A DNA stretch of 39,865 nucleotides from NCBI GenBank assembly GCA_018816555.1, contig JAHIVT010000050.1, positions 1-39,865 on the forward strand, given 5' to 3'. The notes under the pieces were generated by a model. The model did no database searches and was not told the DNA's origin. It saw only the letters and a list, made by a program, of their open reading frames with translations. Source of the DNA: Pseudomonadota bacterium. Lineage in GTDB: Bacteria; Desulfobacterota; Desulfobulbia; Desulfobulbales; SURF-16. Numbering within the stretch: the first letter of the stretch is position 1; every line of letters starts with the position of its first letter. Shown in pieces: positions 8,028-28,179 of this stretch. A program made the translations under genes and the position numbers.

Positions 8028-8585
8028 ATGGAACCAGTCACCCTTATTTTCATAGCCTTGGCCCTGGCCATGGATGCCTTTGCCGTGGCCCTGGCCGCCG
8101 GCGTTGCCCTGCACCCGGTGAGCAAAAGACAGCTCTTCCGCCTGGGCTTTCACTTCGGCCTTTTCCAGGGCCTCATGCCGATCATCGGCTGGCTGGCCGG
8201 TCTCAGCGTCCAGGGTCTGATCAGCGCCTATGACCACTGGCTGGCCTTCGGCCTGCTTTCCTTTGTCGGGGGCAAGATGATCTTCGAGGCCTTTCAGGAT
8301 GACGAGGAAAAACAGAAAACTGACCCCACCAAGGGGGCGACCATGGTGATGCTCTCCATTGCCACCAGCATCGACGCCCTGGCAGTAGGCCTGTCCCTGG
8401 CCGTTATCGGCGTCACCATCTGGACCCCGGCCCTGGTGATCGCCGTAACCGCCTCAGCCCTGACCGTGGTCGGCATGCTGCTGGGAGGTAAAATCGGCAT
8501 GATCTGGGGCAAGCGGGTGGAGGTGCTGGGCGGCCTGCTGCTCATCGGCATCGGGGTAAAAATCCTGGTGGAACACCTGGGATAA
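8028..8585 (+). CDS. mntP: Manganese efflux pump MntP
   Basis: The protein is 185 aa, the usual MntP length, with six predicted membrane helices arranged as two three-helix repeats. Each repeat carries the metal-path aspartate: ALAMDAFAVALAAG near residues 11-24 and ATSIDALAVGLSLA near 112-125. It exports Mn(II) across the inner membrane in family members studied. The start is ATG 8028; the ribosome-binding site is poor. I looked for a yybP-ykoY manganese riboswitch in the 150 bp upstream and could not recognise one. The gene is monocistronic and followed by a perfect 20-bp palindrome. Confidence 0.9.
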   Translation: MEPVTLIFIALALAMDAFAVALAAGVALHPVSKRQLFRLGFHFGLFQGLMPIIGWLAGLSVQGLISAYDHWLAFGLLSFVGGKMIFEAFQDDEEKQKTDPTKGATMVMLSIATSIDALAVGLSLAVIGVTIWTPALVIAVTASALTVVGMLLGGKIGMIWGKRVEVLGGLLLIGIGVKILVEHLG

Positions 8586-8613: not shown

Positions 8614-8630
8614 CTACACTTCTTCCTGTT

Positions 8631-8689
8631 GCCTTATGCCCCTTGCCTTTTGCCTATGCCCTATGCCCTATGCCCTATGCCTCTTGCCT
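8631..8689. repeat. Degenerate tandem heptamer array, about 8 units
   Basis: Successive units GCCTTAT, GCCCCTT, GCCTTTT, GCCTAT, GCCCTAT (three times) and GCCTCTT. This is the complement family of the GGCATAA array at 5017-5044. The array runs into the 3' end of echF and provides its last codons and stop. Confidence 0.8.
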
Positions 8690-9036
8690 TCCTCCCCACT
8701 TTTCACTTCCACCTTCAGCACCACACTCTCCCGCTCCCGCACCGCCGGGCGCCACTGGCTGAGCTGCGATAGGCTGCCGGTGGGACAGGCCTCCACGCAC
8801 ACCCCGCAGAAGACGCAGGCAAAGGGTTCGTATTGCCACAGACCCTCCTTACGACTGACCGTGAGGCATTGGGAGGGGCAGGTGCGGGCGCAGGTGCCGC
8901 ACAGGATACACTTACCCGCATCATTGACCAGCTGGCCACGGCTGCCGGCAAAAAGCTTCCGCGGGCTCTGGGGGTACGGTCGGGTGGCGCAGCGGCTAAA
9001 CAGGTTTTTCAGAACAACCGGGATCATGAACACCAT
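8668..9036 (-). CDS. echF: Ech hydrogenase 2x[4Fe-4S] ferredoxin subunit
   Basis: The protein is about 122 aa from ATG 9036, 7 nt after GGAG; the frame is open nine codons further upstream but that part lies in the repeat element. It has two ferredoxin motifs, CILCGTCARTCP near residues 44-55 and CVFCGVCVEACP near 74-85, each binding one [4Fe-4S] cluster. In Ech it carries electrons from reduced ferredoxin toward the NiFe subunit; it is homologous to NuoI. This is the last gene of echABCDEF. Its final residues (GKRHRA) and its stop codon are encoded by the heptamer repeat at 8631-8689, so the C-terminus may vary with repeat number. Confidence 0.9.
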   Translation of the reverse strand: MVFMIPVVLKNLFSRCATRPYPQSPRKLFAGSRGQLVNDAGKCILCGTCARTCPSQCLTVSRKEGLWQYEPFACVFCGVCVEACPTGSLSQLSQWRPAVRERESVVLKVEVKSGEEGKRHRA

Positions 9037-9047
9037 ACTCTCACTCC

Positions 9048-9203
9048 TTATTCCAAGTTGCATTCAGACCAAGACCGCGAAGGCAAGCGAGCAGCGACGA
9101 GACAGTACATTGGGTACGGCGAGGAGCCGCACAGCGCAGCCGATTCAGTTCAATCCCCCCTCGAGTGGGACAAAGGTATTGGTCTGAAGGTGACTTGGAA
9201 TTA
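9048..9203. mobile_element. 150-bp MITE-like element with terminal inverted repeats and 3-bp TTA duplication
   Basis: The ends are TTCCAAGTTGCATTCAGACC at 9051 and, in inverse orientation, TTGGTCTGAA...ACTTGGAA ending at 9200. The first 8 bp are perfectly inverted; after a 4-bp mismatch, a 10-bp TTCAGACCAA block is again perfect. The element (9051-9200) is bounded by TTA at 9048-9050 and TTA at 9201-9203, which looks like a target duplication. It has no transposase. The inside is GC-rich with short hairpin-forming segments such as GTACATTGGGTAC. It fills nearly the whole echE-echF gap. Confidence 0.75.
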
Positions 9204-10277
9204 CCTTTCCGTGCAGCTGACGCAGGGATCAATGGACAGCAGCACCACCGGCACATCGGCCAGCTCAATACCCGGCAGCATGACGGTCAGGGCCGGGATA
9301 TTGGCAAAGGTCGGGGTGCGGATGCGCAGGCGGTCCAGGAATTTGCCGCCGTTTGCCTTGATATAGTAGAGACACTCGCCCCTCGGCTGCTCGGCCCTGG
9401 CCACAATCTCCCCCTCCGGCCTGCCCTTGACCGGCACGCTGATGTCGCCTGCCGGCAGTTTGCCAATGGACTGGCGGATCAGATCAATGGACTGGCCCAG
9501 CTCGGCAAAGCGCACCCGGCACCTGGCATAACAATCGCCATCCCGCTCCACCACCGGGGCAAAATCAAGCTCCCCGTAGGCGGCATAGCCCAGCAGGCGC
9601 ATGTCCTGGGCCACCCCGCAACTGCGCAGCATCGGCCCGACGCAGCCAAGCTCCAGGGCCTGCTCGCGGGAAAGGACACCTTTGCCCCGGGTGCGCTTCT
9701 GCACCGTGTAATCATGCAGGATGGTGCGGCCCATGGCCTTGATCCCCTTTTCCACCTCCGCAAGTTCCGAGAGAATCCAGCCGGTCTGGCCGGGGTCCAG
9801 ATCCCGCCGCACCCCGCCGATGACGTTGACCGAGAGGATCACCCGGTTGCCGGCCGTGGCCTCGTTCATGTCCATGATCCGTTCCCGCACCTTCCACAGC
9901 TGCATGAACAGGCTCTCAAAACCCATGGCATCGGCAAACAACCCCAGCCATAACAAATGGCTGTGCAACCGGTGCAGCTCCGACCAGATGACCCGCAGGA
10001 ACCTGGCCCGGGGCGGTGGCTCCACCCCCATCAGCGACTCAAGCCCCTGACAGTAGGTGAGGGCGTGGATCATGGAGCAGATGCCGCACACCCGCTCAAC
10101 GACCTGGATCATCTGGCGGAAATCCCGGATATCCGCCAGCTTTTCCAGGCCGCGGTGCACATAGCCGAAGGCCGGGGTGGCGGAGATAACGATCTCGTCC
10201 TCAATCTTGAGGTTAAGATGCAGGGGCTCCGGCAGCACCGGATGCTGGGGCCCGAAGGGAATAACGGTGCCGGCCAT
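9201..10277 (-). CDS. echE: Ech hydrogenase NiFe catalytic (large) subunit
   Basis: The protein is 358 aa from ATG 10277 behind GGGGGAG; a GTG at 10283 is also possible. It belongs to the group 4 large-subunit family, homologous to NuoD. All four nickel-ligand cysteines are present: RVCGICS near residue 66 and DPCVSCTER at the very end. The protein stops directly after CTER, so there is no C-terminal peptide for a maturation protease to remove. It reduces protons with electrons from ferredoxin, or runs in reverse, coupled to ion movement by the membrane arm. Its TAA stop is the insertion point of the MITE-like element. Confidence 0.95.
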   Translation of the reverse strand: MAGTVIPFGPQHPVLPEPLHLNLKIEDEIVISATPAFGYVHRGLEKLADIRDFRQMIQVVERVCGICSMIHALTYCQGLESLMGVEPPPRARFLRVIWSELHRLHSHLLWLGLFADAMGFESLFMQLWKVRERIMDMNEATAGNRVILSVNVIGGVRRDLDPGQTGWILSELAEVEKGIKAMGRTILHDYTVQKRTRGKGVLSREQALELGCVGPMLRSCGVAQDMRLLGYAAYGELDFAPVVERDGDCYARCRVRFAELGQSIDLIRQSIGKLPAGDISVPVKGRPEGEIVARAEQPRGECLYYIKANGGKFLDRLRIRTPTFANIPALTVMLPGIELADVPVVLLSIDPCVSCTER

Positions 10278-10279
10278 CT

Positions 10280-10645
10280 TCACTCCCCCCTGTCCGGCCC
10301 GCTGGGCCCGCGGAAAGGCGGAGCGCTGTCTTCGCCCTGCAGGTACAGGGTGCGCTGGTAATCCGGAGTAAGCCCGATAAAACGCAGGCCGAACTGGTCC
10401 TGAATCTCATTTTCCACCAAAAAGGCTGATGCATAGATGCCACAGATGCTGGGCACCTCATCGCCGCTGACTGTCAACCGCAGATGGCTGAGCGAGAGCT
10501 CCCGGTCAAAATGATAGAGCAGCTCGGCCCCGGCGCTGTCGGCCCTTACACAGGTGATGGTGACAAAACGGCAGCCTTGTTCCTTCAAAGCGGCAACCGC
10601 CCGGCACAGCTCCCCGCTTTCGATTCTGTCCGCGGTAATGGTCAT
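10280..10645 (-). CDS. echD: Ech hydrogenase subunit D (NuoC-like)
   Basis: The protein is 121 aa, homologous to the 30-kDa NuoC subunit of complex I. The recognisable part is YHFDRELSLSHLRLTV followed by VPSICGIYASAFLVENEIQD and the family signature DQFGLRFIGL near residues 82-91. Its start codon overlaps the echC stop (ATGA) and its end abuts echE, so the three are translationally coupled. It forms part of the soluble hydrophilic arm with EchC, EchE and EchF and has no cofactor of its own. Confidence 0.88.
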   Translation of the reverse strand: MTITADRIESGELCRAVAALKEQGCRFVTITCVRADSAGAELLYHFDRELSLSHLRLTVSGDEVPSICGIYASAFLVENEIQDQFGLRFIGLTPDYQRTLYLQGEDSAPPFRGPSGPDRGE

Positions 10646-11106
10646 TTCCCCTCCCCTTTTCCTTTGCTTTTTTCCCTGAATTTTTCCAGGGCCAGTACCA
10701 CCCCGTCGATGATGGCCTCGGGCCGGGCCGGGCAGCCGGGCACATAGACATCCACCGGGATGACCTTGTCCACCCCGCCCACCACATTGGGCGCCTCCCT
10801 GAATATGCCGCCGGAGAGCCCGCAGGCGCCGATGGCCACCACCACCTTGGGTTCCGGTATCTGCTCAAAAAGAACAGCCAGCACCTCCCGGTTGCGAAGA
10901 TTGACCGTGCCTGTCACCAGCAGGATATCGGCATGCTTGGGATTGCCCACGTTCACCACCCCGAAACGCTCCACGTCATAGACCGGGGTCAGACAGGCCA
11001 GGGTCTCAATGTCACAGCCGTTGCAGCTGCCGCAGTCAAAGTGCAGCAGCCAGGGCGATCTGCGCCGGGCCGTGCTGATCAGATTATCGATGAGTCCCAT
11101 GCCCAT
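10642..11106 (-). CDS. echC: Ech hydrogenase small subunit (NuoB-like, [4Fe-4S])
   Basis: The protein is 154 aa. It carries the proximal [4Fe-4S] cluster ligands: CGSCNGCDIE near residues 25-34, then VVAIGACGLSG and YVPGCPARPEAI, as in NuoB and group 4 small subunits. The start at 11106 directly follows the echB stop, with AAGGGG as ribosome-binding site; a second ATG two codons later has better spacing. The subunit passes electrons between the EchF ferredoxin clusters and the NiFe site in EchE. The C-terminal tail is Lys-rich (KFREKSKGKGEGK). Confidence 0.93.
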   Translation of the reverse strand: MGMGLIDNLISTARRRSPWLLHFDCGSCNGCDIETLACLTPVYDVERFGVVNVGNPKHADILLVTGTVNLRNREVLAVLFEQIPEPKVVVAIGACGLSGGIFREAPNVVGGVDKVIPVDVYVPGCPARPEAIIDGVVLALEKFREKSKGKGEGK

Positions 11107-11961
11107 TTACCCCTTAAGCCAGAAGAGATTAAACGCGGACAGGATAAAGGACGCACCCCAGCCCCAGCCGAGCATCCAGCGCCAGGTCAGACGGGCTGCG
11201 ACGTTGTCCAGGACAATGACCGCAAAAAAAACCGCCAGGGGCAACAGGATCATCCCTTTGGCATCGGTTGCCCAGAACAGGGAACAGATGGCGAGATAGA
11301 GCATCACCTCCAGCCAGTGAGCGATTTCCAGCAGGCCGAGATAGGGACCGACGTATTCGGTGAACACCCCGCGCACCAGCTCCTGATGGGCATGATGGCA
11401 GCCGGCCAGATCAAAGGGCGATTTGCGCATCTTAACGGTCAAGGCAAAGAAAAAGGCGGCAAACAGCAGCGGCAGACGGTAAAGCAGCGGCTCCGGCAGG
11501 GCAGACAATTCACTGAGGCGAAAGCTGCCCGTGGTGAGATAGAGCGCCCCGGCAATGAGAAAAAGCAGGGTCTCACAGCTCAGCATCTGCCACAGTTCCC
11601 GCTGGGAAGCTGTCTGACTGTAAGGCGAAGGGGAAGCCATGGCCCCCAGCACCAGAAAAACGCCGCCCACCATATGGACAAAGAGAATCACCAGCAGATC
11701 CCCCTGCAGGGCAAAAAGAACCAGGGCAACGGCGGCGGCAGCAAGGCTTGCCACCGGAGAAAATGCCTGCCACGGGTTGGTGACCATCCTCTCCTTGGCC
11801 ATGAGCTTGATGACATCAAGAAAAGGCTGGATCAGTGGCGGACCCTGGCGTGACTGGAGGCGGGCCGTCAGCCGCCGGTCTATGCCGCTGAGCAGCCCTC
11901 CCAAGAGGACCGCGGCACAGAGCACTGCCAGGGCAAGAGCGGTTGTCTTCATCATTTCCAT
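11107..11961 (-). CDS. echB: Ech hydrogenase membrane subunit B (NuoH-like)
   Basis: The protein is 284 aa from ATG 11961, which overlaps the echA stop by 10 bp; the frame is open further upstream inside echA. It has about eight membrane helices. NuoH/HycD signatures are visible: LQSRQGPPLIQPFLDVIKL near residues 35-53, and KMRKSPFDLAGCHHAHQELV near 175-195, which faces the hydrophilic arm in complex I. The subunit anchors the catalytic arm to the membrane and couples it to ion movement with EchA. Confidence 0.92.
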   Translation of the reverse strand: MEMMKTTALALAVLCAAVLLGGLLSGIDRRLTARLQSRQGPPLIQPFLDVIKLMAKERMVTNPWQAFSPVASLAAAAVALVLFALQGDLLVILFVHMVGGVFLVLGAMASPSPYSQTASQRELWQMLSCETLLFLIAGALYLTTGSFRLSELSALPEPLLYRLPLLFAAFFFALTVKMRKSPFDLAGCHHAHQELVRGVFTEYVGPYLGLLEIAHWLEVMLYLAICSLFWATDAKGMILLPLAVFFAVIVLDNVAARLTWRWMLGWGWGASFILSAFNLFWLKG

Positions 11962-13868
11962 AAAGCACCGCCGAGGATGAAAAGAAGAAGCCCTGCGGCG
12001 GCAAGATTCAGCCACAGGGTCCAGCGCTCTTCGCCAAAAAGCGGGGCAAGATAAGCGTTTTCCACCACCGCCCGCACCGGCCGGTTAAGGGGCCCGACAA
12101 AATGATCAGGCAGCCCGGCGTTTGCTCCGGACATATAGGCAGTGCCCTTCCTGCCGACCATGGCCTTGCTGACCCCGGACAGGGCCAGCAGCCCGATGAG
12201 CGCCGCCACGGCAAAGACCACAATAAGGGGAAACGACCCCACGGCAGTCGTCAGCACCCCACCCCTGCCGGCAGAGAACGCCCGGCCGCCAGGGAACAGT
12301 GAAGTAAGCGGCACAAGCAGACGGGCGTAGAGAATAGGTGCGGCAAGCCCCAGCAGGCCGGCGCCGCACCCCAGGGCCGCAAGCGGGAAACGGGTGAGAA
12401 ACGGCTTGATCTCGGGCTTGAATCCTGTTGTCTGGCCGCTGGCCAGCAGGGTCCCGGCCAGTCGTACCCAGTAGAGGAGAGTAAAAGAGCTGCCCAGCAC
12501 CAGCATGAGATAAAAAACAATATGATCCGCCCCGGCCTCAAAGACCAGCCATTTGCCGAGCAGCATGCCGAAGGGCGGCACAATGATCGTCAGCATCCCC
12601 AGCACCGCAATCATGCCGGTGAACGGCATTTGCGCGCACAGGCCCCGCATCACCTCGATATCGCGGCTGTGCACCTGCTGCTCCGCCGTGCCGACGCAGA
12701 GAAAAAGCAGACCCTTGGAAACGGCGTGGAAGAGAATCAGCAGGATGCCGGCCGCCACGGCACCAGGCGTGCCGATCCCGGCGCAGGCAAAGATCAGGCC
12801 CAGGTTGCTGATGGTGGAATAGGCCAGCACCTTTTTGGCATTGCGCTGACCAATGGCAAGAGCCGCGGCGGCAAAAAAGGTGAAGCCGCCGGCCAGCATG
12901 AGCCCCTGGGCGAGCAGGGTGTGGGCAAAGGCCGGGGCAAAACGCAGGGCCAGATACACCCCGGCCTTGACCATGGTGCTGGAATGGAGAAGCGCCGAGG
13001 TGGGTGTCGGCGCCACCATCGCCCCCAGCAGCCATTTCTGCCAGGGCAGCTGGGCGGATTTGGTGAAAGCCGCCAGCACAAGCAGGCTAAGAGGCAGCAG
13101 GGCCGCGGGTTTTCCGGCTGTTGCCGCCACCAGCCCGTTCATATCAAGCTGGGCGCTCTGGCTATAAAGTCCCCAGATGGCGAGCAGCAGCAGTAAACCG
13201 CCGGCCCCGTTCATCCACAGGGCGGTCAAGGCGTTGCCCACCGCTTCCTCGGTGCGGTCATGGGCGATCAGCAGAAAGGAGCAGAGGGTGGTCAGTTCAA
13301 AGAAAAAATAGAAATGGGCCAGATGATTGGTGAGCACCAGCCCGTTCATGGCGCCGAGAAACAGGAGCAGCACGGCAAAGAACTGCGGCTGGCGCGATCG
13401 GGCAAGATTTTGATGCTGCTCATGGGCCTGCATGTAGGGAATGGCGTGCAGACAGATAAGCCCGCCCACCGTACAGACCACCCGGACCAAAATAAGCGAC
13501 AGAGCGTCAGCGGCGAACAGGGCAGGACCCTGGTCTTCGGCAAAGACAAAAAACTCAAGCCAGGCAAACAGGCCAAGCTGGCTGGCCGTCAGCATGATAA
13601 TGAGGAAATTACGGTAACGGCAGCCCAGAAAGAACATGATGGCCAGCAGCAGGAAATCCCCGCCGGTGATCACCGGGTCAATGATCCCGGCCCACCGCAT
13701 GCCGGCATCCGGGGCAAGAGGCCCCTGCAGCAGCAGACTGCTGACGGCAAGCCCTGCGACGGTGGCGATGACGATAAATGAGCGGCAAGCGGATGAACGG
13801 ATAAGAAGACACGCCAGGGCGGCAAGAAAAGGAACAATGATGAGAACGACCAGAATGGCCTCTGACAT
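11952..13868 (-). CDS. echA: Ech hydrogenase antiporter-like membrane subunit A (NuoL/Mrp-type)
   Basis: The protein is 638 aa with about 16 predicted membrane helices, and is the first gene of the ech operon. Proton-translocation signatures of NuoL/HyfB/MrpA proteins are intact: the FFFELTTLCSFLLIAHD glutamate, AFTKSAQLPWQKWLLGAM with its lysine, APTPTSALLHSSTMVKAG, and AYSTISNLGLIFACAG. It is the ion-translocating subunit. The 160 bp between it and the divergent sigma-54 regulator must hold the promoters. I found no good -24/-12 element for ech there; the closest candidate has 11 instead of 10 bases between GG and GC. Confidence 0.93.
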   Translation of the reverse strand: MSEAILVVLIIVPFLAALACLLIRSSACRSFIVIATVAGLAVSSLLLQGPLAPDAGMRWAGIIDPVITGGDFLLLAIMFFLGCRYRNFLIIMLTASQLGLFAWLEFFVFAEDQGPALFAADALSLILVRVVCTVGGLICLHAIPYMQAHEQHQNLARSRQPQFFAVLLLFLGAMNGLVLTNHLAHFYFFFELTTLCSFLLIAHDRTEEAVGNALTALWMNGAGGLLLLLAIWGLYSQSAQLDMNGLVAATAGKPAALLPLSLLVLAAFTKSAQLPWQKWLLGAMVAPTPTSALLHSSTMVKAGVYLALRFAPAFAHTLLAQGLMLAGGFTFFAAAALAIGQRNAKKVLAYSTISNLGLIFACAGIGTPGAVAAGILLILFHAVSKGLLFLCVGTAEQQVHSRDIEVMRGLCAQMPFTGMIAVLGMLTIIVPPFGMLLGKWLVFEAGADHIVFYLMLVLGSSFTLLYWVRLAGTLLASGQTTGFKPEIKPFLTRFPLAALGCGAGLLGLAAPILYARLLVPLTSLFPGGRAFSAGRGGVLTTAVGSFPLIVVFAVAALIGLLALSGVSKAMVGRKGTAYMSGANAGLPDHFVGPLNRPVRAVVENAYLAPLFGEERWTLWLNLAAAGLLLFILGGALWK

Positions 13869-27936: not shown

Positions 27937-27956
27937 TCAGGACGTTTCCATGGTTC

Positions 27957-28132
27957 ATGATCCTGGCAGGTCTTCTGACTTGCAGATCAACCCGGAACCA
28001 CGCCTTCCCATCTTTTAACGACAGTGGCATTGTATGGTTTCAGTCCCTGCTTACAGCGCTGGCCCAACGTTACGGATTTGCACCGTATTCCCTTTTCACC
28101 GCCAATCCGGAGACCGGCGACACCGAGATCAT
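27957..28132 (-). ncRNA. Cobalamin riboswitch (B12 element)
   Basis: Reading the minus strand from 28132: a P1 arm ATGATC, then GGTGAAAAGGGAATACGGTG, a CAAATCCGTAACG segment, GCGCTGTAAGCAGGGACTGA, the conserved GCCACTG, GGGAAGGCGTGGTTCCGG, and the B12 box AAGTCAGAAGACCTGCC. It closes with GATCAT pairing to the first arm. These are the ordered hallmarks of adenosylcobalamin-type riboswitches. It precedes the terminator at 27886-27936 and bzaF. Confidence 0.92.
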
Positions 28133-28179
28133 CTCTGCAAAGAGAGAGAGAATTACCGAAACAGAGCAAGAATGCAAGT

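Follow-up and report, generated by a model that had tools for sequence, protein, structure and literature searches.

The ech gene cluster of the window

The window, by which we mean the whole stretch of DNA that was analysed (39,865 nucleotides), has six clustered genes on its minus strand that encode a membrane-bound [NiFe] hydrogenase of group 4 (Table 1). EchE contains the motif ERVCGIC and, at its very C-terminus, DPCVSC (the protein ends DPCVSCTER-stop). Among solved structures it matched best the alpha subunit of a membrane-bound hydrogenase (6cfw_L, E = 3.1e-72). In an NCBIfam scan of four subunits, only the 20-kDa subunit passed a cut-off, with a NuoB subfamily model, and no Ech model was among the matches listed. 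The gene order, the ERVCGIC and DPCVSC motifs and the match to 6cfw_L make the label Ech a reasonable one for the cluster. The final EchE cysteine lies four codons ahead of the stop, so that altered last codons would affect the metal site of which the C-terminal cysteines are presumably a part. A low-complexity tandem of CCCTATGCC-like units (window ~8627-8690) is located between a manganese-efflux gene (8028-8585) and echF. At gathering scores, Rfam matched the window at a single place, a cobalamin riboswitch (27948-28142, minus strand, 107 bits).

Table 1. Positions of the ech genes and of the parts of the junction element in the window, and sizes of the transposase-bearing elements found in other genomes
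Feature	Position in window	Strand	Length	Basis	Remarks
Proton antiporter	11952-13868	-		domain match	
NADHdh	11107-12015	-		domain match	
Oxidored_q6	10642-11106	-		domain match	
30 kDa	10280-10645	-		domain match	
echE, large subunit of group-4 [NiFe] hydrogenase (49 kDa-NiFe)	9201-10283	-		domain, motifs, structure match	
Right target-site duplication, TTA	9201-9203			sequence	echE TAA stop (on minus strand)
MITE (TTCCAAGT...ACTTGGAA)	9051-9200	+	150 bp	flanks, arms, folding, other copies	orientation of covariance model R1
Right terminal arm, inverted	9174-9200	-		inverted-arm comparison	
Optional module, TTCAGTTCAATCCCCCCTCGAGTGGGA	9144-9170	+	27 nt	comparison with other copies	
Conserved core	9078-9143	+		family alignment	apical GTAC/GTAC hairpin and purine mismatches
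Left terminal arm, TTCCAAGTTGCATTCAGACCAAGACCG	9051-9077	+		inverted-arm comparison	
Left target-site duplication, TTA	9048-9050			equal to 9201-9203	second TAA on minus strand, abutting echF ribosome-binding region
echF ribosome-binding region, GGAGTGAGAGT	9037-9047	-		position and motif only	
echF, ferredoxin-like subunit	8668-9036	-		domain match	
Element L351			1112 bp		TTA duplication; same place as L279
Element L352			1156 bp		TAA duplication
Element L353			1156 bp		TTA duplication
Element L361			1156 bp		TAA duplication
Element L357			1133 bp		TAA duplication

A miniature inverted-repeat element in the echE stop codon

The junction between echE and echF holds a 150-bp element with TTA on either side, as a preliminary description of this DNA had stated. 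The duplicated triplet is indeed the echE stop codon, which reads TAA on the minus strand (9203-9201). Removal of the element together with one TTA restores TAA-GGAGTGAGAGT-ATG on that strand, again as described, and the insert is seen to widen the distance from the echE stop to the echF start from 11 to 164 nt. By this arrangement echE keeps its stop and echF its ribosome-binding region and start, and the two proteins are left intact, in agreement with the earlier account. The inverted ends that had been quoted as 8 nt are present, but the arms are in fact 27 nt each and are 85% complementary. Miniature inverted-repeat elements (MITEs) are shorter than 500 bp and carry terminal inverted repeats, and the element, with its 150 bp and 27-nt arms, has both properties. 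It is predicted to have no coding capacity, since its copies differ in length by single bases, which is incompatible with a conserved frame. Rfam 15 gave no covariance-model match to the element at gathering scores, nor up to an E-value of 1 within 9040-9210.

An uninterrupted echE-echF junction is found in three relatives, G001, G004 and G011, whose EchE proteins are 96, 89 and 79% identical to that of the window. The echE stop at these empty junctions is TAA in G001 and G004 and TGA in G011, and the echF ribosome-binding region and start follow directly. The window genome (4.93 Mb) has three copies of the element in total, the window copy and one each on contigs C91 and C136. In contig orientation the C91 copy is flanked by TGA/TGA (TCA in the orientation of the family model) and the C136 copy by TTA/TTA. 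Both are 27 internal bases shorter than the window copy and have no counterpart of its optional module; short repeats similar to this module are found elsewhere, and one (TTCAGTTCAATCCCCCCTTGAGGGGGA) occurs outside the MITE in G010, G013, G020 and G028 (loci L023, L024, L025 and L026). The same end sequence was recovered in five stretches of named assemblies, which belong to Desulfobulbaceae, Desulfocapsa and unclassified Deltaproteobacteria or Proteobacteria metagenome-assembled genomes. The loci L029 and L104 of G001 show additional hairpin inserts.

The preliminary description had taken the segment for a MITE-like insertion and had proposed a search for further copies and for empty sites in related ech operons. 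Both exist: there are two more copies in the window genome and others in relatives, 3-bp duplications flank copies, and three related ech junctions have no insert. Neither of the outcomes that it had named as contrary to an insertion, namely an insert at this place in all orthologous ech operons or a unique element with coincidental flanks, was found.

Distribution of the family and its target-site duplications

A covariance model of the family, R1, was built from 21 copies. The window copy, itself one of these 21 rows, matches the model with 128 bits (E = 4.6e-28). When 146 genomes from the order were searched and the best candidates of each scored (up to 24), R1 matched in 37, the window genome included. 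In a sample of 395 genomes from the phylum, again including the window genome and with up to nine best candidates scored, matches were found in 37, and 30 of these lie outside the order. One genome of the survey, G115, holds at least 24 copies.

The flanks of 125 copies were examined; most of these were top-scoring, and they came almost entirely from the order. Exact 3-bp duplications are present at 70 copies and absent from the other 55, and all 70 have the form TNA. In model orientation the duplicated triplet is TAA in 31, TTA in 28, TCA in 10 and TGA in one. Copies flanked by TCA or TGA contain no TA at that position, and the target rule is therefore one of 3 bp and not the dinucleotide TA. 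TAA and TTA are even in number, and TCA and TGA, at 10 to 1, are uneven. No clear target motif was detected past the TNA, only weak preferences. The terminal TTCCA...TGGAA is almost invariant across the family; the remaining arm sequence varies by subfamily and is mostly still complementary.

A conserved hairpin core on variable arms

The window element folds better than all of 200 dinucleotide shuffles on the plus strand (z = -4.66) and on the minus strand (z = -4.85). A longer stretch (9010-9215, minus strand) folds no better than its shuffles (z = -0.48). An early idea of a strand preference in folding was dropped, as the element span folds equally well both ways.

The core is better conserved than the arms that enclose it. 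In an alignment of 83 rows (A2), pairs of copies with arms averaging 50% identity keep cores that are 80% identical; core identity is 81% at arm identities of both 61 and 77%, and 86% in the remaining bin, which comprises arms above 85% and two partial rows. Compensatory changes support the structure. Paired cells make up 95.3%, where shuffles reach 81.7% and slid controls 28-36%, figures that come from non-independent cells in an alignment fitted to the model. Core pairs that have changed on both sides include 33-130 (GC to AU in 25 copies), 34-129 (CG to AU in 24), 43-118 (CG to UA in 15) and 52-109 (GC to AU in 24). On the model strand, G-U outnumbers A-C in the core by 54 to 9 in A2 and by 29 to 20 in alignment A3.

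The core model had no match within the elements at six transposase-bearing loci, the single hit (E = 0.52) lying outside the element. This result and the steadiness of core identity across differing arms suggest that core and ends have separate histories, as they seem to do. The family would then appear, from comparison of its copies, to be a conserved hairpin on exchangeable ends. Our guess is that the core serves mobility rather than host regulation, forming a single-stranded or cruciform hairpin, since the copies are evenly oriented relative to host genes.

Candidate parent elements

Transposases were reached via similar ends located outside known MITE copies. In a wider transposase search of 193 genomes, 13 yielded a total of 21 matches. 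Of 16 loci that were scanned, 5 contain an element of 1112-1156 bp that is complete from end to end, has TTC(C/T) at its ends and is flanked by an exact TNA duplication (Table 1). The remaining 11 loci gave no end-to-end element with an exact duplication. Locus L289 has fitting ends, but its flanks are unequal (TAA and TTA). In L351, L352, L353 and L361 the transposase is divided between two overlapping frames, both open, of 170-191 and 190-195 codons, and in L357 it is broken into three frames of 179, 101 and 84 codons. The overlapping two-frame layout is identical in the four elements, as if read by frameshifting.

Transposase parts matched the Pfam families DDE_3 or HTH_33 (DDE_3 for L279 and L260). 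The likeness to the IS630 family lies in the second transposase frame, which passes the NCBIfam model transpos_IS630 (NF033545, cut-off 100 bits) with 113.7 bits in L279 (ORF2), 110.2 in L260, 109.7 in L353 and in L361 and, narrowly, 101.1 in L352. An 81-aa fragment of L357 scored 35.3 bits. The ends of L357 (TTCTAAGTTGCATTC and TTCCAAGTTGCATTC) are the nearest to the window arms: the left arm is identical to them at 21 and 20 of 27 positions, and the right arm at 19 and 18 of 27.

IS630 elements classically duplicate the 2-bp target TA. By contrast, the duplication is the 3-bp TTA or TAA at 5 of the 16 loci, and TCA and TGA occur as well among the MITE copies. Because 3-bp TNA duplications stand where TA is the usual rule, the transposase-bearing relatives look like a variant IS630-like group. 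They differ from the IS630 family further in that four of the five have a transposase split into two overlapping frames.

Searches of the window genome for transposases with similar ends found no cognate enzyme. This genome has nine IS630-type matches, two of them over the cut-off and three of them weak ones on contigs C99, C119 and C21; TTCC ends are absent at three further IS630-type loci there, those whose ends were scanned. The window copy is therefore probably orphaned now. The expectation in the preliminary description of a transposase with matching ends and 3-bp duplications is thus borne out in part, by similar ends and TNA duplications in other genomes, and not in the window genome.

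Two candidate parents were rejected. An IS630 element at the contig end in a G001 copy (L096/L104) sits inside the MITE between TA repeats (L104, L010). It belongs to another IS630 group and splits the MITE copy, and the contigs are broken there (L104 2998-3221 and L010; contigs C123 and C155 of G001). An IS630 with ends like those of this interrupting element also occurs in the window genome (L323). An IS5/IS1031-like parent, which the TNA duplication had first suggested, found no support; the transposases to which the recovered ends belong are of IS630 type.

Stop codons as landing sites

With genes taken from simple ORF calling, 26 of the 68 duplicated copies with enough flank adjoin an open frame of 100 codons or more that ends, in frame, on the duplicated triplet, and 21 of the 26 stop-hit proteins, EchE included, match a Pfam family. 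Under a stricter rule, in which non-overlapping ORFs were picked first, 20-21 of the 68 are at stops, 25-35 are non-coding and 13-22 are inside ORFs, the ranges spanning variants of the rule. In 400 kb taken from ten of these genomes, 6.1-12.5% of the TNA sites that are either stops or non-coding are stops, and the enrichment of stops over non-coding TNA sites has an odds ratio of 5.9-9.8 (P = 4.8e-8 to 7.4e-12). In a per-locus conditional test 20-21 copies were observed at stops against 8.8-11.3 expected (P = 1.5e-4 to 1.4e-6); the rule least favourable to enrichment gives a local expectation of 11.3 against 21 observed. A first control, in which 252 of 4925 TNA sites were stops (5.1%), was set aside because coding sites were included in the count. 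A per-locus expectation of 11.4-18.3 of 68 was replaced because it had included loci with the site inside an ORF. Orthologous placement was seen for just one pair among the 68 copies, and the copies thus represent nearly all separate events. Stop codons are over-represented as a landing place across the whole family, and the echE insertion is not a one-off.

Tight same-strand junctions like that of echE and echF are present at L176, L196 and L201, where an ATG follows 13, 20 and 23 nt past the duplicated stop; of the three upstream ORFs, that of L196 has a Pfam family (PilN). Stop-hit genes run in the same direction as the model in 12 cases and in the opposite direction in 14. Among the five transposase-bearing elements, L353 alone is placed at the stop of a long ORF (100 codons or more), a frame of 168 codons. 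In the window genome a solitary element end sits directly at the TGA that terminates an RNase III gene (L100 2998-3019, G000:C116:15864; TIGR02191, 238 bits), and another lies at the TGA stop of a long open frame in JAFLKM (L098 5691-5715); both are partial copies.

The TAA of a cysZ-like gene is occupied in different species by elements of two subfamilies, subfamily 1 in G094 and G152 and subfamily 2, at the identical TAA, in G106. The gene has a bare TAA in G051, and its stop is free of both elements in those more distantly related members of the genus that were examined. The G106 gene has an earlier in-frame stop six codons upstream, so that the TAA of the element is no longer its first stop. 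Two independent insertions are the simplest reading, and replacement of one element by another is possible. By a hand estimate, about 0.06-0.09 coincidences of this kind are expected by chance, and the single case is therefore not conclusive for targeting.

Origin of the insertion and its rivals

Very probably, the 150-bp segment is a MITE that entered the echE TAA after the split from G001, was moved by a TNA-cutting transposase, and belongs to a family whose copies survive at stops. The event would have been the insertion of a non-autonomous MITE after divergence of the window species from G001. A transposase that cuts TNA with a 3-bp stagger would duplicate the TAA and so keep both the echE stop and the echF start region. 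To judge from the similar ends and equal duplications, this enzyme most likely came from the IS630-like, TTCCA-ended, TNA-duplicating group of the same order. Accumulation at stops may reflect the fact that TAA and TGA fit TNA, together with the near harmlessness of an insertion there, insertions within genes or ribosome-binding sites presumably being purged by selection.

The transcript across the junction would carry the predicted hairpin. Coupling of echE and echF by re-initiation is unlikely, given that a ribosome stopping at echE is now 164 and not 11 nt from the echF start; this separation and a strong hairpin in the mRNA probably end translational coupling of the two genes.

The excess at stops could also arise if terminating ribosomes, transcription ends or DNA structure actively targeted the element to gene 3' ends and made stops true hot spots. 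The odds ratio over non-coding TNA sites and the presence of two subfamilies at one cysZ TAA, empty in G051, are what such targeting would produce, but selection against other sites is expected to leave the same pattern. There is in addition no clear extended target motif, the cysZ coincidence is a single one that element replacement could also explain, and four of the five transposase-bearing elements are not at such a stop. We consider active targeting unlikely, though it is the strongest of the rivals.

It is much less probable that the element by now serves the ech operon as a regulatory RNA structure and is retained for tuning EchF. Strong folding of both strands, the transcribed one included, and compensatory changes throughout the family would suit such a role, and related repeats elsewhere are RNase targets (PMC10969869). 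Against it, three related ech operons do without the element, copies of the family adjoin unrelated genes in either orientation, and no promoter-like or terminator-like site was found within 8950-9300. A chance inverted repeat with chance TTA flanks and no insertion at all can practically be dismissed in view of the relatives that lack the element, the copies with TNA duplications and the transposase-bearing relatives.

Insertion of a TNA-targeted MITE has a wider consequence. The TNA rule and the 3-bp duplication turn stop codons into self-healing landing sites, and tight operon junctions become invadable with both proteins unbroken. More tentatively, and at rather less than even chances, the core may be the real unit: a module selected for pairing that sits on the ends of varied TNA-cutting IS630-like transposons, occurs across many families of the phylum and prefers stops that are restored by the insertion itself. 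If that is true, the core would amount to a hairpin that hitch-hikes on exchangeable transposon ends, and its near-neutral landing niche would be inherent in the genetic code.

Relation to known elements

In the openly licensed literature we found no earlier report of this MITE family or of IS630 elements with TNA duplications, and none on miniature inverted-repeat elements in Desulfobulbaceae. What is described here is a MITE family whose hairpin core is conserved, together with IS630-like elements whose duplication is unusual. Two questions thereby become accessible to experiment: whether MITEs are directed to the ends of genes or simply persist there, and what causes the conservation of the core to exceed that of the MITE ends. 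Singly, MITEs, IS630-type parents, operon insertions and stop-supplying repeats are already known (PMC2229807, PMC3049150, PMC10969869).

RUP of Streptococcus pneumoniae, which is thought to be moved by IS630-Spn1, is also short and non-coding with IS630-type inverted ends (PMC2229807). It inserts at TA, whereas the window family has 3-bp TNA duplications, and the accessible portion of that source mentions no conserved core on exchangeable arms such as is seen in the window family. The further comparisons, with BOX, Chunjie, Correia elements and ERIC, are by description and not by sequence. BOX, from the same species as RUP, is likewise modular, and of 58 coding sequences that overlap a BOX, 36 have the overlap at their very 3' end, where the stop codon is encoded by the repeat (PMC3049150). 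The BOX repeat thus supplies the stop itself, whereas in the window family the target duplication restores it; BOX has been compared with ISSpn2 and not with IS630 (PMC3049150). The Correia elements of Neisseria and ERIC, from other hosts, are transcribed repeats subject to cleavage by RNase III or RNase E (PMC10969869). Chunjie of Geobacter uraniireducens is also a MITE in an operon, and the title of the original report (PMC2516098, via PMC10969869) has the operon structure undisturbed. It measures 178-235 bp as against the 150 bp found here, and according to the review Chunjie-1 disrupts a phosphate uptake operon (PMC10969869).
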